A stretch of DNA of 64,000 nucleotides from Christiangramia sp. (GTDB lineage Bacteria; Bacteroidota; Bacteroidia; Flavobacteriales; Flavobacteriaceae). The stretch spans positions 1 through 64,000 of the forward strand of contig NZ_JAPYPC010000015.1 in NCBI RefSeq assembly GCF_029937855.1, in the 5' to 3' direction. Below, one piece after another: positions 396 to 62,700 of the stretch. Each line of letters opens with the position of its first letter. The first letter of the stretch is position 1. The notes under the pieces are model-generated. The model was given only the letters and a program-made list of their open reading frames with translations, was not told the DNA's origin and searched no databases. The translations under genes were made by a program, and so were the position numbers.

Positions 396-1622
396 TCACT
401 CTTCACTTCCCCGCATCGCCTGTTTCAAATCCTCAATGATATCATCTACATGTTCCAGACCAACAGAAATCCTAACCAAACCTTCAGAAATCCCTGCCGC
501 TTCCAGTTCCTCCTTAGACAATTTGCTATGGGTCGTGGAAGCAGGATGCGTCACTATAGTCCTGGTATCTCCAAGATTTGCAGATCTCGAACAAAAATTA
601 AGCTTATCTATAAACCTTCTCCCTGCTTCAATCCCTCCTTTTATTTCAAAAGCCACCACATTTCCGCCCAGTCTCATTTGCTTTTTCGCGATTTCATATT
701 GTGGATGCGACTTTAAAAAGGGATATTTTACATTTTGAGTATCCTTTTTTTCTTCTAGAAATTCAGCTACTTTTAAAGCATTCTCACAATGCTTTTCCAG
801 CCGGACCGATAAGGTTTCCAAACTCTTTGACAGTACCCAGGCATTGAATGGTGATAGGGCCGGCCCGGTATTTCTGCTAAAAAGATAAATTTCCCTTACC
901 AGATCTTCCCGGCCTACCGTTACACCTCCAAGTACTCTTCCCTGCCCGTCTATCAATTTTGTAGCAGAATGTATCACCAGATCAGCTCCAAATTTTATGG
1001 GATTCTGAAGATAGGGTGTGGCAAAACAATTATCGATGATCAAAATCAGATTATGTATTTTAGCAATTTTACCAAGATGCTCCAAATCCAAAATATCTAC
1101 TCCCGGATTGGTGGGAGACTCCGCGAAAAGAATCTTCGTTTCGGGCTTAATGAGACTTTCAATCGTTTCCGGCTTATTTACATCAAAATAGGAATGTGAA
1201 ATATTCCATTTCGGGAAATATTTAGTAAGCAACCCATGGGTTGATCCAAATACTGACCTTGCAGAAACTATATGATCGCCACTATTTAATAAAGAAGCAA
1301 GCGTGGAAAAAACCGCAGCCATCCCCGTGGCAAAAGCATAACCTGCTTCTGCACCCTCCATTTTTACCATTTTCTCTACAAACTCTGAAGTATTGGGATT
1401 TGTAAAGCGACTATAGATATTTCGCTCTTTCTCCTCCGCAAAGCTCGCCCTCATATCTTCAGAATCTTCAAAGACATAACTTGAAGTTAGATATAAAGGA
1501 ACCGAATGCTCCTGAAACTGAGTCCGCTCACTTTGAGTTCGCACCGCGATAGTCTCAAAATTTTCGTGAAAATGACCATTAGAATCACTTTTCTCTTTTC
1601 CTGTAGCTTCTGGATTTTTCAT
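396..1622 (-). CDS. metZ: O-succinylhomoserine sulfhydrylase-like PLP enzyme
   Basis: A 408-residue member of the Cys/Met-metabolism PLP family (cystathionine gamma-synthase fold). It would convert an activated homoserine plus sulfide (or cysteine) to homocysteine (or cystathionine) in the cytoplasm. The PLP lysine is K222 in HSATKLIDGQGR; the IDGQGR context is typical of MetZ-type sulfhydrylases rather than MetB/MetC. The substrate-binding SRFTNPN motif is at 71-77. The first ~25 residues are a polar extension. It is the last gene of a four-gene minus-strand operon, 8 nt after hom, and the operon also contains a second, MetY-type sulfhydrylase. Exact substrate (acetyl- or succinyl-homoserine) and reaction (sulfhydrylase, synthase or lyase) cannot be settled from sequence alone. 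Confidence 0.85.
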   Translation of the reverse strand: MKNPEATGKEKSDSNGHFHENFETIAVRTQSERTQFQEHSVPLYLTSSYVFEDSEDMRASFAEEKERNIYSRFTNPNTSEFVEKMVKMEGAEAGYAFATGMAAVFSTLASLLNSGDHIVSARSVFGSTHGLLTKYFPKWNISHSYFDVNKPETIESLIKPETKILFAESPTNPGVDILDLEHLGKIAKIHNLILIIDNCFATPYLQNPIKFGADLVIHSATKLIDGQGRVLGGVTVGREDLVREIYLFSRNTGPALSPFNAWVLSKSLETLSVRLEKHCENALKVAEFLEEKKDTQNVKYPFLKSHPQYEIAKKQMRLGGNVVAFEIKGGIEAGRRFIDKLNFCSRSANLGDTRTIVTHPASTTHSKLSKEELEAAGISEGLVRISVGLEHVDDIIEDLKQAMRGSEE

Positions 1623-1630
1623 TTCAAATT

Positions 1631-2704
1631 TTAGTTTAAACGTTCAGATACTTTCAAAATATCTCCAAATACACCTCTGGCTGTCACCTCAGCTCCTGCT
1701 CCTGCTCCCCGAATTACCAGGGGCTGATCTTTATAAGATTCCGTATAAATCTCGAAAATATTATCAGCGCCTTCTATCTGCCCAAGGACAGATGTTCTGG
1801 GTTCATGGATTAGTTTTGCTTCCAGGTCTCCACTTACCGCATTTAATTCCCCAACATATCTTAAAACCTCATCTTTAGACTTCTCTTTTTTATAATTTCC
1901 AAAGTGCAGATCCAGTTCCTCTATCCTTTTATTGAATTCTTCAAGACTGGTCTCTCCGTTTAATTGCGTTGGTATTAAAGACTGAATATTTACTTCTTCA
2001 AATTCCTTTTTCAACTGAAGCTCCCTGGCAAGGATCAATAATTTTCTACCTACATCCTTTCCGCTTAGGTCAATTCGCGCATCGGGCTCGGTATAACCCA
2101 ATATTCCCGCTTCTTTTAAGACTTCTGAAAATTCTTTCTCGCTATCTGAATATTTGTTGAAAATATAGCTCAGGGATCCTGAAAAAACACCTCTGATTTT
2201 TGTTACTTTTTCTCCTGAAAGATGCAGATTTTTTAGTGTTTCAATAATGGGCAAACCTGCCCCCACATTTGTTTCGTAAATGAAATTTTTGTTGTTATTC
2301 TTTAATTCTTTTCTCAGCTCATCATAAAATTCAGAAGACAGGGTATTGGCGACTTTATTTGCCGCGATAATATGACTTCCGGAATTTACCAGGGCAAAAT
2401 ATTTCTGCGGAAATTCATTACTGGCCGTAGTGTCTATAGAAATAAGGTTCTCAAATTCATTCTTTTTAAAATATTCTTCAATATCATCAAATGAATACCG
2501 CTGCGAACTTTCTTTAAATAAATTATCCCAGTCAGATTTTATTCCTTTCCGATTTAAAAGAGCATGTGAAGAATCTGCAATAAGGATCAGTTTAATTCTG
2601 ATTCTCGAAGAATTCTTTAAATGCTCTTCAGAATGGGCCAGCTGTTCCAGCAACTTGCTTCCTACTTTACCCGGCCCAAACAGAGCGAGATGAATTGTTT
2701 TCAT
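1631..2704 (-). CDS. hom: Homoserine dehydrogenase
   Basis: A 357-residue NAD(P)-dependent homoserine dehydrogenase that reduces aspartate semialdehyde to homoserine, the branch-point precursor of methionine and threonine. The N-terminus has the nucleotide-binding motif FGPGKVGSKLL (residues 9-19). The catalytic domain contains GVFSGSLSYIFNKY and GYTEPDARIDLSGKDVGRK, with the family's conserved Asp and Lys residues. It resembles the stand-alone dehydrogenase half of ThrA-type bifunctional enzymes: no aspartokinase and no ACT domain, so feedback control by threonine is not expected from the sequence. Its first 38 nt overlap the 3' end of the metX-like gene, which implies translational coupling. 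metZ follows 8 nt downstream. Confidence 0.93.
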   Translation of the reverse strand: MKTIHLALFGPGKVGSKLLEQLAHSEEHLKNSSRIRIKLILIADSSHALLNRKGIKSDWDNLFKESSQRYSFDDIEEYFKKNEFENLISIDTTASNEFPQKYFALVNSGSHIIAANKVANTLSSEFYDELRKELKNNNKNFIYETNVGAGLPIIETLKNLHLSGEKVTKIRGVFSGSLSYIFNKYSDSEKEFSEVLKEAGILGYTEPDARIDLSGKDVGRKLLILARELQLKKEFEEVNIQSLIPTQLNGETSLEEFNKRIEELDLHFGNYKKEKSKDEVLRYVGELNAVSGDLEAKLIHEPRTSVLGQIEGADNIFEIYTESYKDQPLVIRGAGAGAEVTARGVFGDILKVSERLN

Positions 2705-3680
2705 AATTTTGTTTCGTTGGTTGAAAAATTGGTTTTAAAAATCTGTTCAATTGATCTGTTTCTATCAGGAATGCATCGTGGCCATGGATAGATCTAATTT
2801 CATGAATGTTAATATTATTTTTGAGCAGGGAAATTTCTACATAGGAATTCCAGTTTTCTTCCGCCAGAAAAAACAAATCTGAATTCACCGTAACGATATG
2901 AATATCTCCCTTGATCTTTCTTGCCGCTTCCAGGTAATTTCCATCGCCATTACTAATATCGATGGTGGTAAGTAAATGGTTCATCAGTTTATAAGATTTC
3001 AGGGTGAACCTGCTCTTCAACTTTTCCCCATGATACAACAGCCAGTTTTCGACTTCAAATAACTGATCTTGCGAATTTCTTTTCCCTGCAAATTTCTGAG
3101 CCAGCGACTGCGGAGTTCTGTAAAAAGTCATTGCATGCATCCTCGCATCATGTACCGGGTTTGACGAATTATTCAAAATATGATCCTGTATCCTGCAGTT
3201 TGCAATAAGCCAGTCTGTAGACTTATAATCGGAGGCAATAGGAATAATATTCTCGGCCAGATTTGGCTTTAAAACTGCCAGTTCCCAGGCTAAAGCACCA
3301 CCAATACTTCCCCCTATGATGGCAAAAAGTTTAGTGATATTCAGTTTTTCCAGTGCCTGTGCCTGTATTTTAGCTATATCCTTTAACCTAAATTCCTTAT
3401 AATTTTCAAAAAATTGATCTTCATGTCCTTTAAATCCATTGCCGGGAATATTAAAAGCAAGGACACAGAATTTATCGATATCGATACACTTATTTTTTCC
3501 AATAAGGTCTTTCCACCAGCCTTCACTACCCGTAACCAGGGAGTTACCCGTGAGAGCATGATTTACCAATATAATGGGAGCCTCTGCCGGTTTTCTTCCG
3601 AAGAACTGATAACACAGGTGAATATCCTGAACACTTCCTGCGGAATTTTTAAAGTTCTCTATTTTAATCTCTTCAAGCAT
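2667..3680 (-). CDS. MetX-family homoserine O-acetyltransferase-like protein
   Basis: A 337-residue alpha/beta-hydrolase-fold protein with the marks of the MetX family: NHALTGNS near residue 40, nucleophile Ser125 in GGSIGG, an Asp near 268 and a catalytic His301 in GHDAFL. The expected reaction is acetylation (or succinylation) of the homoserine hydroxyl to prime it for sulfhydrylation. It is somewhat shorter and more divergent than classical MetX, so acyl donor specificity is uncertain. It lies between metY (107 nt upstream) and hom (38-nt overlap), exactly where the pathway needs the activating enzyme. The 107-nt gap carries a dispersed repeat at 3714-3735. Confidence 0.8.
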   Translation of the reverse strand: MLEEIKIENFKNSAGSVQDIHLCYQFFGRKPAEAPIILVNHALTGNSLVTGSEGWWKDLIGKNKCIDIDKFCVLAFNIPGNGFKGHEDQFFENYKEFRLKDIAKIQAQALEKLNITKLFAIIGGSIGGALAWELAVLKPNLAENIIPIASDYKSTDWLIANCRIQDHILNNSSNPVHDARMHAMTFYRTPQSLAQKFAGKRNSQDQLFEVENWLLYHGEKLKSRFTLKSYKLMNHLLTTIDISNGDGNYLEAARKIKGDIHIVTVNSDLFFLAEENWNSYVEISLLKNNINIHEIRSIHGHDAFLIETDQLNRFLKPIFQPTKQNYENNSSRSVWAG

Positions 3681-3713
3681 CTTTCTATAAAACTCAATTT
3701 ATCCATTGTTTTG

Positions 3714-3735
3714 TCCGGCTGAGCCTGTCGAAGCC
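3714..3735. repeat. Short dispersed repeat (GGCTGAGCCTGTCGAAGCC)
   Basis: The segment holds a core GGCTGAGCCTGTCGAAGCC, a motif family that recurs in intergenic regions of many Bacteroidota. A related motif, CTTCGACTCCGCTCAGAGTG, sits at 5330-5349 in this window. It interrupts the gap between metY and the metX-like gene. Confidence 0.55.
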
Positions 3736-3787
3736 TTCTTAAATCTTAGTATTAGGTACGTCGCCAAGCTCAGCGAAACAAGTTGCA

Positions 3788-5080
3788 TTAAACCAATGAT
3801 TTCTTTTTTATTTTTAAAAAAGCCTCTTTTAGATCTGCTTTAAGGTCTTCCACATCTTCCAGGCCTACGGAAAGCCGTATTAAGTCTTGTGTTACTCCTG
3901 TGGTAGCCTGCTCATCTTCTGTTAATTGCTGGTGAGTGGTACTTGCAGGATGTATGATCAGGGATTTAGTATCCCCGATATTTGCAAGTAGGGAAAATAC
4001 TTTCGACTCATCTACCACTGTTTTTGCCGCTTCATATCCGCCCTGCACCCCAAAAGTCACTAATCCGCTTTGACCCTCAGGCAGGTATTCTTTTGCCAGA
4101 TCATAGTATTTGCTGCTTTCGAGTCCGGGGTAATTCACCCATTTTACTTCTTCCTGTTCCTGTAGCCATTTAGCGAGTTCTAATGCATTTTTACTATGCT
4201 CCTTAATACGGATCTTTAAAGTTTCCAATCCCTGAATAATCTGAAATGCATTAAACGGACTCAGTGCCGCACCATGATCCCTTAAACCTTCAATTCTAAC
4301 TTTGGCAATAAAAGCAGCTTCTTCTAAAGCTTCGTGATAAACAAGCCCATGATAGCCAGGAGATGGCTCGGTGAACTCAGGGAATTTACCATTGGCCCAG
4401 TCAAATCTACCAGCATCTATAATGACCCCTCCCAGGGAAGTGCCATTCCCGTTAATATATTTAGTAAGGGAATGAATTACGATATCGGCGCCATGCTCGA
4501 TTGGGTTTAGCAAATATGGCGTTGCGACGGTATTATCTACAATAAACGGAACTTTAAAAGCTCTGGCTTCTTTAGATATTCCTTTAAGATCCAGCACATC
4601 CAGTTTTGGATTCCCCAGCGACTCTACAAAAAATACCCGTGTATTTTCTTTGGCTGCTTTTTTAAAATTTACTGGATCCTGAGGATCCACAAAAGTGGTG
4701 GTGATCCCCAACCTCGGCAGGGTGTTTTTGAGCAGATTATAAGTTCCTCCATAAAGGCTGCTGGAAGCTACAATATGATCGCCCGCTTTAAGCAAAGTAA
4801 GTAGTGTGGTATTAATAGCTGCCGTTCCAGAAGCTGTTACTACTGCTCCAATCCCCCCTTCTATCGCCGCCAACCGCTGCTCTAAAATGTCATTAGTGGG
4901 ATTATTTAATCTGGTATAGATAAATCCTGGTTTAGCCAGGGAAAATAGGTCGGCAGCATGTTGGCTATCGTTAAATACGTATGAACTTGTTTGATAAATG
5001 GGCACGGCCCTGGTTCCACCATTTTGGGTAGTATCGTGACCTGCGTGCAATGCTTTTGTTGAAAAATTTTGAGTACTCAT
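3788..5080 (-). CDS. metY: O-acetylhomoserine sulfhydrylase
   Basis: A 430-residue PLP enzyme of the MET17/MetY type, which makes homocysteine directly from O-acetylhomoserine and sulfide. The N-terminal FSTKALHAGHDTTQNGGTRAVPIYQTSSY is truncated here to its key marks: STKALHAGHD, then AVPIYQTSSY. PLP lysine is K207 in HSLTKYINGNGTSLGG. The long central stretch with FPEFTEPSPGYHGL (~230-245) is diagnostic of MetY and absent from MetB/MetC/MetZ. It is the first structural gene of the methionine operon. Its 5' leader (5081-5515) has two Met/Cys-rich leader ORFs, each followed by an intrinsic terminator, so its expression is probably controlled by attenuation. Confidence 0.92.
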   Translation of the reverse strand: MSTQNFSTKALHAGHDTTQNGGTRAVPIYQTSSYVFNDSQHAADLFSLAKPGFIYTRLNNPTNDILEQRLAAIEGGIGAVVTASGTAAINTTLLTLLKAGDHIVASSSLYGGTYNLLKNTLPRLGITTTFVDPQDPVNFKKAAKENTRVFFVESLGNPKLDVLDLKGISKEARAFKVPFIVDNTVATPYLLNPIEHGADIVIHSLTKYINGNGTSLGGVIIDAGRFDWANGKFPEFTEPSPGYHGLVYHEALEEAAFIAKVRIEGLRDHGAALSPFNAFQIIQGLETLKIRIKEHSKNALELAKWLQEQEEVKWVNYPGLESSKYYDLAKEYLPEGQSGLVTFGVQGGYEAAKTVVDESKVFSLLANIGDTKSLIIHPASTTHQQLTEDEQATTGVTQDLIRLSVGLEDVEDLKADLKEAFLKIKKKSLV

Positions 5081-5120
5081 AATTATAATTTTTAAAGGTT
5101 TATTTAATAAATCGCACTAA

Positions 5121-5160
5121 TAAAAAAGTCCCCCTGATTTGCTATTACCAGGGGGACTTT
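5121..5160 (-). terminator. Leader terminator 2 (proximal attenuator of met operon)
   Basis: On the minus strand the sequence forms a 12-bp perfect stem, AAAGTCCCCCTG pairing with CAGGGGGACTTT, around a 12-nt loop, followed by more T residues. It lies between the stop codon of leader ORF 2 (5183) and the metY start (5080), so it must be read through for operon expression. That is the position of an attenuator. I see only a weak alternative pairing upstream (ACTT and GAATT in the end of the ORF with AATTC and AAGT), so how it is prevented from forming is unclear. Confidence 0.85.
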
Positions 5161-5182
5161 ATGAATTGAACATTATAACTAA

Positions 5183-5275
5183 TTAAATTCTCAAGTTTTG
5201 GCAATAGCATTCCATGCGACACATACACATCATTTCCATACACATACTCATCATTTGGTTACAAGTAGTTCTCAT
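5183..5275 (-). CDS. Met/Cys-rich leader peptide 2
   Basis: A 30-codon ORF (ATG at 5275, TAA at 5183-5185). Nine Met and six Cys make up half the peptide, and the centre reads QMMSMCMEMMCMC. An in-frame ATG at 5290 would extend it by five codons (MFREL). It lies upstream of terminator 2 and metY, which makes homocysteine. By analogy with trp and his leaders, scarcity of charged Met- or Cys-tRNA would stall ribosomes in the Met/Cys run and alter terminator formation. That mechanism is inferred; the ORF, its composition and its position are seen directly. It shares the pattern R-T-x-C-N with leader 1, which suggests duplication. Confidence 0.85.
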   Translation of the reverse strand: MRTTCNQMMSMCMEMMCMCRMECYCQNLRI

Positions 5276-5327
5276 TAGTTCTCTAAACATTTAAAACTCA
5301 ATTTTGGAGCTTTGGTTCTTATCTAAA

Positions 5328-5351
5328 CACTTCGACTCCGCTCAGAGTGAC
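5328..5351. repeat. Short dispersed repeat between the two leaders
   Basis: Contains CTTCGACTCCGCTCAGAGTG, a widespread intergenic repeat motif in Bacteroidota. It lies between terminator 1 and leader ORF 2. No TAnnTTTG box is visible between terminator 1 and leader 2, so both leaders probably lie on one transcript. Confidence 0.55.
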
Positions 5352-5363
5352 AAAAATCAGGAT

Positions 5364-5398
5364 ATAAAAAAAGCCGCTGCGGTTGGCAGCGGCTTTTT
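5364..5398 (-). terminator. Leader terminator 1 (distal attenuator of met operon)
   Basis: The minus strand reads AAAAAGCCGCTGC, a short loop, then GCAGCGGCTTTTTTT: a strong GC stem with a seven-T tract. It follows leader ORF 1 (stop at 5418). An 8-nt segment inside leader ORF 1 (minus strand CCGCAGCG, 5433-5440) is identical to part of the terminator's right arm, and six of its bases can pair with the left arm. This is the arrangement of an antiterminator competing with a terminator. The stem also has a five-T tract on the plus side. Confidence 0.85.
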
Positions 5399-5417
5399 GC
5401 ATTTATATATTTTCAAT

Positions 5418-5486
5418 TTATGCAATAATGTGCGCTGCGGAAGTTTCCGGCATCATACACATCATATTGCAAATTGTTCTGATCAT
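5418..5486 (-). CDS. Met/Cys-rich leader peptide 1
   Basis: A 22-codon ORF (ATG at 5486, TAA at 5418-5420) with an in-frame stop just upstream of the ATG. The first half reads MIRTICNMMCMM, with five Met and two Cys in all. It starts about 20 nt after a predicted -7 box (5508-5515) and is followed by terminator 1. Codons 17-18 (Ala-Ala, GCA GCG) can pair with the left arm of that terminator. The N-terminal pattern R-T-x-C-N...MM matches leader 2. The likely role is a sensor of Met/Cys-tRNA charging for the methionine operon downstream, inferred from composition, position and terminator. Confidence 0.82.
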   Translation of the reverse strand: MIRTICNMMCMMPETSAAHIIA

Positions 5487-5507
5487 TATTTACGATTTGT
5501 TCGTGTA

Positions 5508-5515
5508 CAAAGATA
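5508..5515 (-). promoter_or_regulatory. Promoter -7 box of the methionine operon
   Basis: The minus strand has TATCTTTG, an exact match to the Bacteroidota -7 consensus TAnnTTTG. A TTG lies 21 nt upstream, close to the expected -33 spacing. Transcription would start near 5502, giving a very short untranslated stretch before leader ORF 1. Confidence 0.7.
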
Positions 5516-6148
5516 ACGACAGACTTTTTTAATATCCAAGCAAAAGAAGAAGAATTATGAAAATTTAAATTTTGAAGCCTGTTTTTGTTTATATAAAATT
5601 TTATTGTGGTGCCTGTTGGTTTTTTCGGAATATTTTTCCTGAAAACAAATCAATAGTGTCCGATAAAAATTATAAAGAACAAACCTGAATCCATAATTTT
5701 CAGTAGTTCAAAGCATTTTACCATTATCTATACCCTGCTTTTACAAATTTTTGAATCCTGGCATTCATTGAAAAACACAATTTCAAACTTTTTTGTTTAT
5801 CAGTTAGTTAGTTCAAGTCTAACTTCTTATATCTAAAAGCGAAGCGGTCTAGTTTCTTTAACCGGCCATGAATAAAAACAAATCAGGCAGGTTTATAAAA
5901 TCTCAGAGGTTTTGCCTGCGTTAGGGATTGAGCGGGTTGTTTGAGCTCTCCCCCCACCCTCCCGGAATTCCTAAATAGAAATTCCGACATCCCAAAAAAT
6001 TGGGAGGTAAGGGGGGAAGCGAGCCGCGAAAGCCCGGCGCAAGCCTTTTTTGGCGAAGCGCAACGCCCTAATTATCGAAATAATTTAGGTGAAATATCCA
6101 AGAAGGATAAAATGACGTTAAATACATTTAGTATGATATGAATTTTTA
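5516..6148. other. Intergenic region with long imperfect inverted repeat
   Basis: No gene is convincing here. From 5948 to 6016 a C-rich arm (CCCCCCACCCTCCC) faces a G-rich arm (GGGAGGTAAGGGGGG). Inner GGAATT/AAATTCC segments could extend the structure, and a nested CCCAA/TTGGG hairpin lies at about 5991-6005. It is followed at about 6017-6068 by a GC-rich stretch (GCGAGCCGCGAAAGCCCGG) unlike the surrounding AT-rich DNA. This resembles a REP-like dispersed element. It separates the met operon leader from the metK promoter. Confidence 0.5.
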
Positions 6149-6156
6149 TACATTTG
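6149..6156 (+). promoter_or_regulatory. Promoter -7 box of metK
   Basis: TACATTTG matches TAnnTTTG exactly. Transcription would begin around 6162, about 10 nt before the predicted SAM-II riboswitch. No strong -33 element is evident. Confidence 0.65.
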
Positions 6157-6171
6157 TAGCCAACATATTAA

Positions 6172-6240
6172 AAGGGATAGATTTGACTGATTGCAACCCT
6201 ATTATGCTTTGAAAAAAGTGTATTAAAATGCTAAAGCAGA
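6172..6240 (+). promoter_or_regulatory. SAM-II riboswitch upstream of metK
   Basis: The segment has the conserved SAM-II core: a short P1 stem (AGGG with CCCT) enclosing GATTTGAC...ATTGCAA, then a linker and the 3' pseudoknot strand AAAATGCTAAAG. These match what I recall of the SAM-II (metA-type) consensus known from alphaproteobacteria and Bacteroidota. The linker here is longer than in the minimal form. It lies right after the predicted metK promoter and about 70 nt before the start codon. SAM binding would be expected to reduce expression. I see no terminator between it and metK, so control may be translational or act through the downstream AGTGT/ACACT pairing. Confidence 0.82.
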
Positions 6241-6311
6241 ATGTTTATCACACTCCACTTAGCCCTTCACGTCAAATTTTTCTATTCTTATAAATTAAAA
6301 AACAGAATTGA

Positions 6312-7571
6312 ATGGCTTATTTATTTACTTCAGAAAGTGTTTCTGAAGGCCACCCGGATAAAATTGCAGACCAGATTAGTGATACTTTATTAGATAATTT
6401 CCTTGCTTTTGACGGGGAATCCAAAGTTGCCTGCGAAACCCTCGTAACTACAGGACAGGTAGTACTTGCAGGTGAAGTGAGGAGCAATACCTATTTAGAT
6501 GTACAAAATATCGCCAGGGATGTGATTAATGATATTGGCTATACTAAAGGCGCCTATAAATTTAGCGGTGATTCCTGTGGCGTAATTTCTTTAATACACG
6601 AGCAGTCCCAGGATATTTACCAGGGTGTGGATCGTGGGAATAAGGAAGAACAGGGAGCTGGTGACCAGGGGATGATGTTTGGCTATGCAACCAATGAGAC
6701 CGAAAATTATATGCCCCTCGCCCTTGATATATCTCACAAGATCCTAATTGAACTGGCAAAATTAAGAAGAGAAGGGAAGGATATTGAATATTTGAGACCT
6801 GATTCCAAAAGTCAGGTAACGATTGAATACAGCGACGAGAATGTTCCGCAAAGGATTGTGGCTATAGTGGTGTCTACCCAGCATGACGATTTCGACGAGG
6901 ACGATGAAAAAATGCTTTCTAAGATCAAGAAAGATATTATTGAAATCCTTATTCCAAGAGTAAAGGAGCAATTACCGGATTACGTTCAGGAATTGTTCAA
7001 TGATGATATCGTTTATCACATCAACCCAACCGGTAAATTTGTGATTGGTGGGCCTCATGGTGATGCCGGACTTACCGGAAGAAAGATCATTGTGGATACC
7101 TACGGTGGAAAAGGAGCTCATGGTGGTGGTGCTTTTTCAGGAAAAGATCCTTCAAAAGTAGACCGCTCTGCTGCTTATGCCTCCAGACATATTGCTAAAA
7201 ATCTTGTTGCTGCCGGGGTAGCTCCGGAAATTCTGGTTCAGGTGTCTTATGCGATTGGTGTGGTGGAACCTACTTCAATCTCTGTCTATACCTATGGAAA
7301 GAAAAATACGGAGCTGAGCGACGGACAGATTGCCGAAAAAGTCAAGGAAATTTTTGATATGCGACCCGCAGCTATTGAAGAGCGGTTAAAACTTAGAAAT
7401 CCTATTTACCGAGAAACGGCCGCTTATGGCCATATGGGAAAAGAACCTCGAGTAGAAACAAAGGTTTTTGAAAGTCCCTATAACGGAAAAATCACCAAAA
7501 AGGTGGAATTATTCACCTGGGAGAAACTGGATTATGTAGATAAGGTGAAGGAAGAATTTGGAATGAATTAA
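6312..7571 (+). CDS. metK: S-adenosylmethionine synthetase
   Basis: A 419-residue methionine adenosyltransferase making SAM from methionine and ATP. The N-terminus [18 protein letters not shown] carries the catalytic His and ATP-binding signature. [12 protein letters not shown] is motif 1 and [19 protein letters not shown] is the glycine-rich P-loop-like motif 2. It is full length; there is an insertion-like acidic stretch ([12 protein letters not shown]) near residues 195-205. It is divergent from the methionine operon and preceded by a promoter box and a SAM-II riboswitch. A terminator follows at 7600-7624. Confidence 0.97.
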
Positions 7572-59755: not shown

Positions 59756-62700
59756 ATGAGATTATATAAGACTTTAGCCCTACTATCAATAGTTATTTTA
59801 TCTGGTTGTGTAGAAAATGAAAAGAAGAATAAGGAAGAACCTAATTTCCTTTTAAAAAAAGTTTCCAGCAAAACTTCTGGGATAAACTTTATAAACCAAA
59901 TAATTGAAGATCCGGATCATTCCATAATCAACTACATCTACTATTATAATGGGGGCGGTGTGGCTTCAGGAGACATCAATAACGACGGACTTATTGACTT
60001 GTATTTCGTATCTAATATGGGCGAAAATAAGCTTTATCTCAATAAAGAAAATTTAGAATTTGAAGATATTAGTGCCAAAGCCAAAATTAAAGGAAACTCA
60101 AGCTGGAATACGGGGGTAACCATGGTTGATATTAATAATGATGGTTTACTGGATATATATGTATGTTCGGTCTCTGGCCTTCTGGACTTCAAAGGGCATA
60201 ACGAATTATTTATTAATAACGGCGACCTCACCTTTACAGAAAGCTCAAAGAAATATGGTCTCGATTATAAAGGGTTTTCAACTCAGGCTTACTTTTTTGA
60301 CTACGACAAAGACCTGGATCTAGACCTTTATTTGGTTAACCATGCCATACATACCACTTTATCTCATAGCAAAGCATCGGTCCGTTCAGAAAGAGCTCCA
60401 TTTACCGGGGATATTCTTTTTCAGAACAATGATGGCAGCTATAAGGATGTGAGTGAAAAAGCTAATATTTATGGCGGAATAAATGGCTATGGATTAAGTG
60501 CCTCCCTTGCAGATTTCAATAATGATGGTTGGGATGACATCTATGTGTCTAATGATTTTCATGAAGATGATTATTATTATTTAAACAATCAGGATGGAAC
60601 TTTCACTGAGGATTTAGGTTCCGCGTTTTCTACTATCAGCAGATTCTCCATGGGTAGTGATGCAGCCGATATTAATGCAGACGGCTTTCAAGATCTGGTA
60701 ACATTGGATATGCTACCTAAGGAGGAGCAGGTTATAAAGGAAAGTGAAGGTGACAATATGATGTTGAATATGAATGATAAACTGGCAAAACTTGGTTACA
60801 AAGACCAGTATGCGAGAAATATGCTGCAGTTAAACAGCGATGGTAAATATTTTAAGGAAGCTGCCATACTTAATAATATGGAAGCCACAGACTGGAGTTG
60901 GGCTCCTTTGATAGCAGATTTTAATAATGATGGCGCACAAGATCTTTTTATTTCCAATGGGATTTTAAGGCGGCCAAACGATTTGGATTTCAAAAACTAT
61001 GTCTCGAATGCTTTTAAAAACCGAAATGAAAAGGATGGAATGAAGTGGCTTTATAAATCAAGGGAAGAAATGCCTCCAGGCGATGTAAGCAATGAAATTT
61101 TTAAAGGTGACAACAAAAAATTTAAAAATAAAACCGGCGAGTGGATAGAAAATAAAGCAAGTTTCTCTAATGGTGCCATTTATACAGATCTGGATAATGA
61201 TGGCGACCTGGATCTGGCTATTAATAATTTAAACTCTGAAGCCTCTATCTATGAGAATACTACAGATCCAAATTTTTGGATACAGCTAAACTTTCAATTC
61301 ACAGGTGATAACAAAGATGGAATTGGGACCAAAGCCCTGGTCTATTCAGGAGATCAAACACAGTTAAAACAATTATTCAGATCTCGTGGTTTTGTTTCCT
61401 CAGTAGATAAAAGATTACATTTTGGATCTAAAAGTAAAATTGACTCTATTAAAATTATCTGGCCGGATAACACTTTTCAAACGCTAAAAGATTTCAGGAA
61501 TAACCAGGAAATGGCAGTTTCATATAAAGAAAATTTACCTGTTTATAATTACAATAAAAAAAATAAGGAATCGAATTTTGAAAAAAAATCGCTTGTAAGT
61601 TTTAAACATTTGGAAGACACATACAATGATTTTCATAACGAAAAACTTATTCCTTATAAAGTTTCAACATTAGGTCCTGCTGTAGCAGTAGGTGATATAG
61701 ATCAAAATGGATTTGAGGATATTTTTCTAGGAAATGCATCGGGTAAACCCGCTAAAATTTTCCTGAATAATGGGAAATCCTTTCAGGAAAAAAAGTTTTC
61801 TGAAATCACTAAAGATTCTTTATTCGAGGACAATTCAGCAGAATTTTTTGATGTGGACAAGGATGGTGATCTTGACTTATATGTGGGTAGCGGAATTAAT
61901 AGCGATAGGCAGAAAGAATTTGAAGAAGATAGACTTTATCTTAATGAAGGTGGCAATTTCATTAAAACTACAGGTATTATTCCTTCGAACTTGCTTATAA
62001 ATTCTGACGTGGCAGCAGCAGATTTTGACAATGATGGAGATATAGATCTATTTGTAGGAAATAAAGCAGAAGCGGGAAATTTTGGTAAAGAAGTAACTTC
62101 TTATCTCCTGGAAAATTCTGGTAGTGGTAAATTCTCTATATCTGATAAATTAAATATCCAATCCCATGTCTCTGCCATAAATTGGCACGACCTAAATAAT
62201 GATGGTTATCCAGAGCTTATTATCGCGACAGAATGGGACCAACCAAAAATTTACTGGAATAAGCAAGGAAAGTTTGAAACTGCAAAAATTCCAGAAAATC
62301 TTTCAGGCTTATGGCAGGATATAGAAATTTATGATATAGATAATGATGGTGATAAGGATATACTTTTAGGCAACTGGGGATTGAACACGCGTTTTAAATT
62401 TGAAAATGAGGGCGGCTTAAGAATGTATCATTCAGATTTTAATGATGACGGTACTTACGAAACCATTCTTGCCTATAAGAAGAAAGGTGATTTTTACCCT
62501 ATACATTCCCGGGATGAGCTGGCATCTCAACTCAACTATATAAGCAAAGTGTTTCCATACCATGAAAATTTTGCCATGAAAACCGTGAATCAAATCTCTT
62601 CTGAAAAAGCTATACAGTCTGCCAAAATTTACGAGGTGAACCAATTGGCTTCGGGTTACCTGGAGAACAACAATGGTGCTTTTAACTCCTTTATTCCATT

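Follow-up and report, generated by a model that had tools for sequence, protein, structure and literature searches.

Tandem leader ORFs rich in methionine and cysteine codons upstream of metY in Flavobacteriaceae: putative attenuators that alternate with the SAM-I riboswitch

What controls a methionine operon in which two short ORFs, both dense in Met and Cys codons and each followed by a terminator hairpin, stand between the promoter motif and metY? The window analysed here, a stretch of 64,000 nucleotides, is contig C40 of a 3.9-Mb genome of the genus Gramella/Christiangramia. In attenuators of the trp, his, leu and thr type, a leader ORF rich in codons for the product of the operon is followed by a terminator, and the 5' strand of the antiterminator lies in the last codons of the ORF. 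The metY leaders resemble this type in their product-codon ORF, their terminator and the placing of the antiterminator strand, and differ from it in the use of Met plus Cys codons, in the two units in series and in their occurrence in Bacteroidota. We consider it highly probable that trp-type attenuators gauging the charging of Met- and Cys-tRNA, set in series behind one promoter, control metY-metX-hom. The evidence for this reading is comparative only, and translation of the leaders, termination, the starvation signal and an AND-like response are thus inferred.

Between 5539 and 5081 on the minus strand, the order is promoter motif, leader 1, terminator T1, leader 2 and terminator T2, with metY behind them (Table 1). 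The promoter box, the 22-codon ORF, the 30-codon ORF with half of its residues Met or Cys and the two terminators, all listed in a preliminary description of this DNA, were recovered; leader 2 contains 9 Met and 6 Cys codons (15/30), and its open frame begins five codons further upstream, at 5290 (MFREL...). The same description called the unit duplicated, and this word is unsupported. Duplication of one unit into two was rejected as a general account, because the terminators and tails differ and the likeness of the two leader starts (MRTTCN and MIRTICN) is limited to the genome of the window, L003 and L333, being absent in the other genus genomes read. "Tandem" is therefore the better word, since the two units have not been shown to be duplicates. 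The gene metK is divergent from metY and lies behind a SAM-II riboswitch (RF01726; 6167-6244, plus strand) about 650 bp from the leader region; SAM-II matches were found in all 26 genomes searched. By eye, copies of an interspersed repeat of the CTGAGC...GTCGAAG type were seen on the minus strand at 5328-5351, in the spacer between T1 and leader 2, and at 3690-3790, after metY, and the same spacer in relatives holds similar inserts of varying length (also by eye).

Table 1. Features of the metY leader region and of the genes behind it
Feature	Position	Strand	Basis
Promoter motif	-7 box TATCTTTG 5515-5508; -33 TTG 5539-5537	-	Sequence
Leader peptide 1, MIRTICNMMCMMPETSAAHIIA, 22-codon ORF	5486-5418	-	Met/Cys codon columns conserved, 53 loci
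Antiterminator strand 1, GCAGCG	5433..5438	-	Pairs with CGCTGC 5391-5386 (T1 5' arm); covariation and spacing
Intrinsic terminator T1, AAAAAGCCGCTGCCAACCGCAGCGGCTTTTT then Ts	5398-5368	-	Hairpin and U-run
Leader peptide 2, MRTTCNQMMSMCMEMMCMCRMECYCQNLRI, 30-codon ORF	5275-5183	-	Sequence and conservation
Antiterminator strand 2, TGCTATTGCCA	5199..5209	-	Pairs with 5150-5140, TGGTAATAGCA (top of T2 5' arm and loop)
Intrinsic terminator T2, AAAGTCCCCCTGGTAATAGCAAATCAGGGGGACTTT then Ts	5160-5125	-	Hairpin and U-run
metY, O-acetylhomoserine sulfhydrylase, first regulated gene (ATG 5080)	3788..5080	-	TIGR01326, 634 bits (cut-off 495)
metX-like homoserine O-acyltransferase	2667..3680	-	Best NCBIfam match TIGR01392, 185 bits, below curated cut-off 500
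Homoserine dehydrogenase	1631..2704	-	Pfam PF00742 and PF03447 above cut-off
Cys/Met-metabolism PLP enzyme, close to O-succinylhomoserine sulfhydrylase	396..1622	-	PF01053, 442 bits; NF006003, 514 bits, just below cut-off 522

In Met+Cys density, the two leaders rank first and second (10 and 7 in 12 codons) of the 641 short ORFs in the window (ATG-started, 10-60 codons, six frames); the third-densest, with 6 Met/Cys at 60522-60584, lies out of frame within a long ORF and was dismissed as chance. Only 1 of 2000 first-order Markov copies of 5081-5516 had such an ORF (at least 7 in 12), and none of the 2000 had two. Five terminator-like sites (both strands, partly overlapping) were found in 4900-6400, against 1.1 ± 1.2 in shuffles, and the RNA fold of 5505-5081 has an energy of -110.7 kcal/mol (z = -4.56). 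No Rfam family reached its cut-off in 5060-5600, where the best were weak leader and sRNA families. None of the known Rfam amino-acid leader families attained its gathering score (the best, Thr_leader, scored 27.8 bits where 55 are required, over a terminator), and covariance models gave no SAM-I, SAM-II or T-box match at gathering score at the leader region. The Bacteroid-trp motif is a trp leader; it concerns a different operon and had no match at cut-off in the window. In PMC2864571, as far as available, the motif (RF01692) figures as an RNA of Bacteroidetes with a predicted role in cis regulation.

Whether relatives keep the leaders and their richness in Met/Cys was a test set beforehand, and it was passed both within the genus and in other Flavobacteriaceae. 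Both leader ORFs were found in 23 of the 24 genus genomes (12/12 in the first 12 examined), and the contig of the remaining one ends before the region; the T2 hairpin is below the search threshold in L008 and L333. In a family survey with one genome per genus, metY (E <= 1e-110) was recognized in 137/199 genomes and the upstream DNA was read for 130; in 14 of these 130 loci a terminator follows an ORF dense in Met/Cys, and in 8 of the 14 a tandem was detected. Leaders are present in 53 of the named loci (the best 80 of more), with a tandem detected in 30, and the genera concerned are Flavobacterium, Salegentibacter, Gillisia, Kordia, Lutibacter, Salinimicrobium, Mesonia and Zunongwangia. The two samples share at least three genomes. 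Leader-like matches in L082 and L153 were dropped for lack of a terminator at the right distance, and an ORF with a Met/Cys score of 4, about 1 kb upstream of metY in the SAM-I locus L111, was taken as chance. Left out of later counts were L013, the unsure L145 and L166, L111, and L160, L180 and L211, which are copies of L008, L036 and L052.

Two further observations concern the range of these ORFs. Some Flavobacterium loci (such as L175, L182, L184, L190, L193 and L206) have a clear leader 2 and T2, with no leader 1 detected within 1400 nt; leader 1 has either been lost there or is too sparse in Met/Cys for the threshold. In two other families of the order, Met-rich short ORFs and terminators precede metY in L013, L255 and L257 (for example, MNTMQMYMIMRFRLLLEI and MNYLNMYMRMLMPRLT), and these ORFs have little sequence likeness to the Flavobacteriaceae leaders.

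Selection at the codon level can be read best in leader 1 (n = 53). In the five codon columns that run from -9 to -5 relative to the antiterminator strand, the Met+Cys fraction is 0.89, 0.75, 0.75, 0.89 and 0.89, and after this block it falls to 0.11 and then to near 0; the last Met/Cys column begins 15 nt before the antiterminator strand. Column -8 has 21 Met and 19 Cys, and column -7 has 15 Met and 25 Cys. The codon ATG differs from TGT and TGC at all three positions. Because Met and Cys interchange in two columns by codons that share no base, the alignment suggests that what is selected is a sulfur amino acid at the site, and not particular nucleotides. The enrichment exists only in the reading frame: Met+Cys in frames 0, 1 and 2 amounts to 0.268, 0.100 and 0.050 for leader 1 (57 loci) and to 0.364, 0.112 and 0.013 for leader 2 (62 loci). 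In this the leaders satisfy a demand of the trp type, a short ORF rich in codons for what the operon makes. Behind the Met/Cys block the situation is reversed, as eleven leader-1 loci (L176, L178, L179, L181, L186, L192, L198, L203, L205, L212 and L238) read GCAGAGG as PQR instead of SAE/SAA; the frame of the tail switches while GCAGAGG is kept, and the RNA, not the peptide, is therefore conserved there. One might suppose from the abundance of Met, the commonest residue in both leaders, that the tracts rich in AUG serve as groups of translation starts, or encode functional micropeptides, and do not gauge starvation. However, Cys is strongly enriched also (8.7% in leader 1 and 14.5% in leader 2), the Met/Cys columns end abruptly before the antiterminator, and the tail peptides shift frame with the RNA kept, so that we give this explanation next to no credence.

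Alignments of distinct units were made from 39 of the 58 leader-1 and 39 of the 62 leader-2 units. For T1, 93.7% of the cells are paired and five pairs have changed on both sides, and for T2 the values are 99.1% and seven. An intrinsic terminator with compensatory changes, between leader and first gene, is accordingly present as the trp type demands. The terminators also bear on the possibility that the ORFs act by translational or Rho-dependent control and not by intrinsic termination. Such control would have a precedent in Actinobacteria, where cys genes are preceded by Cys-rich leader ORFs without conserved terminator hairpins (PMC1262725, in the part available), whereas each of the metY leader ORFs is followed by a GC-rich hairpin and a U-run with compensatory changes, located 18-29 nt past the stop codon in the bulk of the leader-1 loci; this possibility is consequently very unlikely. 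The gap between the two units ranges from 16 to 270 nt, and such variation, set against the tight distance from stop to terminator, is as expected of two self-contained modules.

The tail of each ORF finds its partner in the 5' arm or loop of the terminator that follows. In leader 1 the pairing is GCAGCG/CGCTGC in the window, GCAGAGG/CCTCTGC in several Flavobacterium loci and GCAAGGGC/GCCCTTGC in L091; in leader 2 it is GCTATTGCC/GGTAATAGC in the genus and GCGGTATTGCC/GGCAATACCGC in L228. In the alignments of 39 sequences, 86.4% of the cells of antiterminator 1 and 89.5% of those of antiterminator 2 are paired, with four and three double-changed pairs, respectively; both covariation scores were reached by none of the 500 shuffles and lie above all slid controls. 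The counts of double-changed pairs are weaker evidence: for antiterminator 2, 109 of the 500 shuffles reach the count and one slid control surpasses it (4 vs 3), and for antiterminator 1 one slid control ties (4). The outermost pair of antiterminator 1 is formed in only 13/38 sequences. The duplex energies of each tail with its own terminator were better than 5000/5000 permutations for both leaders (the leader-1 set included the leader-2 units L007, L011 and L163 and the unsure L166). Neither shuffles nor permutations were corrected for shared ancestry.

Mutual exclusion of antiterminator and terminator, with the 5' strand in the ORF end, is clear in leader 1, where the antiterminator takes 5-8 nt of the T1 5' arm in 53/57 loci; leader 2 meets this criterion with less overlap of the arm, antiterminator 2 of the window reaching into the T2 5' arm by no more than 4 nt and pairing for the rest with the loop. 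The minimum-free-energy fold of the nascent RNA, before the 3' arm is made, contains the antiterminator in 53/57 leader-1 and 54/59 leader-2 loci, and in the window it also has a second leader-1 helix (5425-5420 with 5402-5397). In 3 of the 62 leader-2 loci (L176, L178 and L181) the antiterminator 2 helix was not found. In the full RNA the terminators have the lower median energies (-20.7 vs -15.3 kcal/mol for leader 1 and -23.2 vs -15.8 for leader 2); because they are the more stable at equilibrium, antitermination must be kinetic, with the order of events deciding.

In leader 1, the antiterminator strand lies 15 nt after the first base of the last Met/Cys codon in 34 loci (the window among them), 14 in 11 and 13 in 4, that is, 13-15 nt in 49 of 57; the remaining 8 loci do not fit. 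A distance of 13-15 nt is about the reach of a ribosome with the codon in its A site. The trp type requires that the antiterminator be free when a ribosome stalls on control codons and covered when the ribosome stands at the stop codon; the spacing in leader 1 agrees with this, and that in leader 2 varies more. In the window, a modelled stall on the last Met of leader 2 does not let antiterminator 2 form, and a stall further upstream is required; 11 of the Met/Cys codons lie at least 15 nt away, and 4 are nearer or inside. With an arm overlap of 4 nt and the need for a stall far upstream, leader 2 is a weaker case than leader 1 in the window.

In the mechanism that we propose, RNA polymerase would transcribe leader 1 with a ribosome behind it. 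If charged Met- and Cys-tRNA were ample, the ribosome would reach the stop codon and cover the end of the ORF, the arms of T1 would pair, and transcription would end. If either tRNA were scarce, the ribosome would stall in the NMMCMM block of leader 1, with its leading edge just before GCAGCG; the freed GCAGCG could then pair with CGCTGC of the T1 5' arm, T1 would be unable to close, and the polymerase would continue. Leader 2 and T2 would apply a second test ahead of metY, and units in series would be expected, by inference, to lower basal expression and to steepen the response in an AND-like fashion.

In 35/57 loci the promoter motif TAnnTTTG lies in the 80 nt before the leader-1 ATG, at 18-22 nt in 29 of them, and the other 22 lack it in that stretch; these figures concern the motif only, without start-site data. 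Before leader 2 it was found in 0/62 loci, the background being 0.068 per 80 nt. The presence of the motif before leader 1 only indicates, as far as a motif can, one promoter with two terminators in series, and the serial AND-like or steeper switch put forward in the preliminary description is consistent with this arrangement, although it remains an inference. Its central proposal, attenuation by Met/Cys leader peptides, is supported by the conservation, the covarying antiterminators, the spacing in leader 1 and the position of the promoter motif, and is further backed by the alternation with SAM-I at metY and by a third leader before sulfite reductase, both described below. It may still be that the attenuators are real and only one unit regulates, the other being a relic or a plain terminator. 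Only one unit was detected in L056, L091, L139 and L145 of the genus sample, the second ORF of L121 and L224 looks worn and has no second terminator above threshold, and the upper stem of T1 is broken in L009. Yet both ORFs are kept in nearly every genus genome (23/24), and the terminator and antiterminator pairings covary in both units, which leaves regulation by a single unit unlikely, though not negligible.

At metY, the Met/Cys leaders and the SAM-I riboswitch exclude each other in the loci sampled. The 130 one-per-genus loci comprise 96 with SAM-I, 14 with leaders, none with both and 20 with neither, and at the same threshold no ORF-plus-terminator unit was found in the 96 SAM-I loci. The class with neither includes L153, with its ORF lacking a terminator, L095, which has SAM-II in sense, L040, which resembles SAM-I by eye, and several loci in which a metK-like frame, read by eye, extends up to metY; no Rfam scan was made for L035 (contig edge) and L040. 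Among the named loci (again the best 80 of more) there are 22 with SAM-I beside the 53 with leaders, 5 with neither (L170, with little upstream DNA, L225, L229, L230 and L235) and 0 with both; here SAM-I was recognized by a pattern of our own, which recovers 90 of the 96 Rfam SAM-I matches. Seven leader loci were checked for SAM-I through whole-genome searches and the window through its own Rfam scan. Six leader genomes (G021, G040, G044, G066, G115 and G161) have SAM-I 70-190 nt downstream of metY, and G146 has it 1.1 kb after metY, ahead of a gene that looks metX-like by eye. In a metY tree of 119 rows, leader versus SAM-I requires six changes, and leader versus the rest requires seven, three of them forced by starred branches, against 38 when shuffled; the tree was made by a quick method (24/115 branches starred), and the direction of change is undetermined.

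The frequency of SAM-I in this very place (96/130 relatives sampled) and the SAM-II element before the neighbouring metK might lead one to regard the leader region as a SAM or methionine riboswitch, a T-box or some other ligand-binding RNA, with the ORFs incidental. Against this, 5060-5600 contains no Rfam family at cut-off, the SAM-I matches in 26 whole genomes include none before metY, and the in-frame interchange of Met and Cys codons is not demanded by an RNA fold; such an RNA seems most improbable, and attenuation by the leader peptides is retained here.

Two loci deserve separate mention. The metY of L262 is a divergent one with 49% identity; the DNA before it (upstream of position 1500, reverse complement) holds what looks by eye like SAM-I and then a Met/Cys-rich ORF with the ending MCSPSMRMRMPMSCFSYMCA, and a riboswitch and a leader may here share one 5' region. 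In the Flavobacterium genome G146 (contig C11, about 444146-444445; L279), a second tandem of short ORFs and terminators is located downstream of metY and before SAM-I. Its ORFs, read by eye, are MFNSYKMFCAISKETVGVSIA and MNKSLQMNKMFNVASIRVCVC, with few Met/Cys, and a short ORF starting MSTLNYLTKTF follows; this tandem is perhaps a decayed copy of the metY region.

Covariance models built from leader 1 (R1) and leader 2 (R2) were used to search 26 genomes. The top place of R1 was the metY upstream region in 25/26, the exception being G021, and that of R2 was the same region in 20/26; six genomes had no R2 match, and the match in G161 is its single leader. Weak R1 matches (L267-L269 and L274-L277, among the matches listed) had no Met/Cys ORF at threshold and were discarded. 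R2 led to a further Met/Cys leader upstream of sulfite reductase (NIR_SIR domains), downstream of cysH-like or, by eye, cysN-like genes. In the genome of the window, this third leader, MNILSNMCMRYQPHT, precedes the reductase together with a terminator (G000 contig C27; L280, upstream of position 1500, reverse complement). The reductase is present in 23/24 genus genomes and the leader ORF in 22 of these 23, with MCMC (15) or MCMR (7); the remaining genome (L315) has, by eye, AICMRELSFT before the same type of terminator. The distance from stop to terminator is 24-27 nt in all 22, and in 20 of them the tail, including the stop codon (CACTTAG and variants), pairs over 6-8 bp with TTAAGTG of the terminator, the helix not being found by script in L311 and L317. 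Outside the genus this leader is rare: of the 30 family loci read, from 58 genomes with the reductase, only three have it (L280, L281 and L282), the genome of the window included, and the ORF of L281 has no clear terminator. A weak ORF at the reductase in L293 was taken as chance. The genome of the window also has SAM-I before a gene resembling metH (by eye).

No Met/Cys leader-peptide attenuator was found in the literature searched, which was confined to open-licence papers. As far as the accessible text of PMC2965389 (2010) goes, leader peptides were then known only from Proteobacteria, Actinobacteria and the Firmicutes hisS case of that paper, and cases in which one sensing system replaces another at a gene are familiar. 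The accessible portion of PMC9723704 reports, for another member of the family, Flavobacterium psychrophilum, "strong clues" that leader peptides attenuate operons of amino-acid biosynthesis from a position upstream of them, so that part of the present finding may have been noted before; the word "methionine" has 0 occurrences in its main text as available, and the Met/Cys leaders may already be listed in its Table S7. Two leader ORFs within one leader mRNA also exist in Salmonella mgtCBR, one of them sensing the charging of Pro tRNA, and this is presented as a singular example with two different signals in the accessible part of PMC3641672. There the signals, ATP and proline, are additive, whereas the metY tandem has the same codon mix in both units, each with its own U-run terminator. 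Mycobacterial polycysteine uORFs before cysteine and sulfur genes (Canestrari 2020, as cited in the available part of PMC13236596) are of Cys only and "leaderless" in the cited title, and differ in this from the Met plus Cys leaders of metY. SAM-I (RF00162) and SAM-II (RF01726) serve the same gene in relatives (metY) and neighbours (metK and, by eye, the metH-like gene). These riboswitches sense SAM, whereas the metY leaders would sense tRNA charging.

Taken as a whole, the results favour, at somewhat better than even chances for all parts jointly, a sulfur-amino-acid attenuation regulon in Flavobacteriaceae. It would consist of tandem Met/Cys leaders at metY and a single one before sulfite reductase in Gramella/Christiangramia and near relatives; leaders and SAM-I would have been swapped several times at metY, so that one promoter would answer to SAM in some relatives and to the charging of two tRNAs in others, and an AND-like, sharpened switch would arise from the two terminators in series. 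The spacing of 13-15 nt offers an easily read rule by which further leaders can be found in Bacteroidota, and the alternation of SAM-I and leader at one gene is a natural experiment in end-product sensing versus tRNA-charging sensing. If the system works as inferred, it would extend what is known of attenuation by a dual sulfur-amino-acid specificity, by serial attenuators for the same signal and by a phylum in which control of this kind has been little studied.
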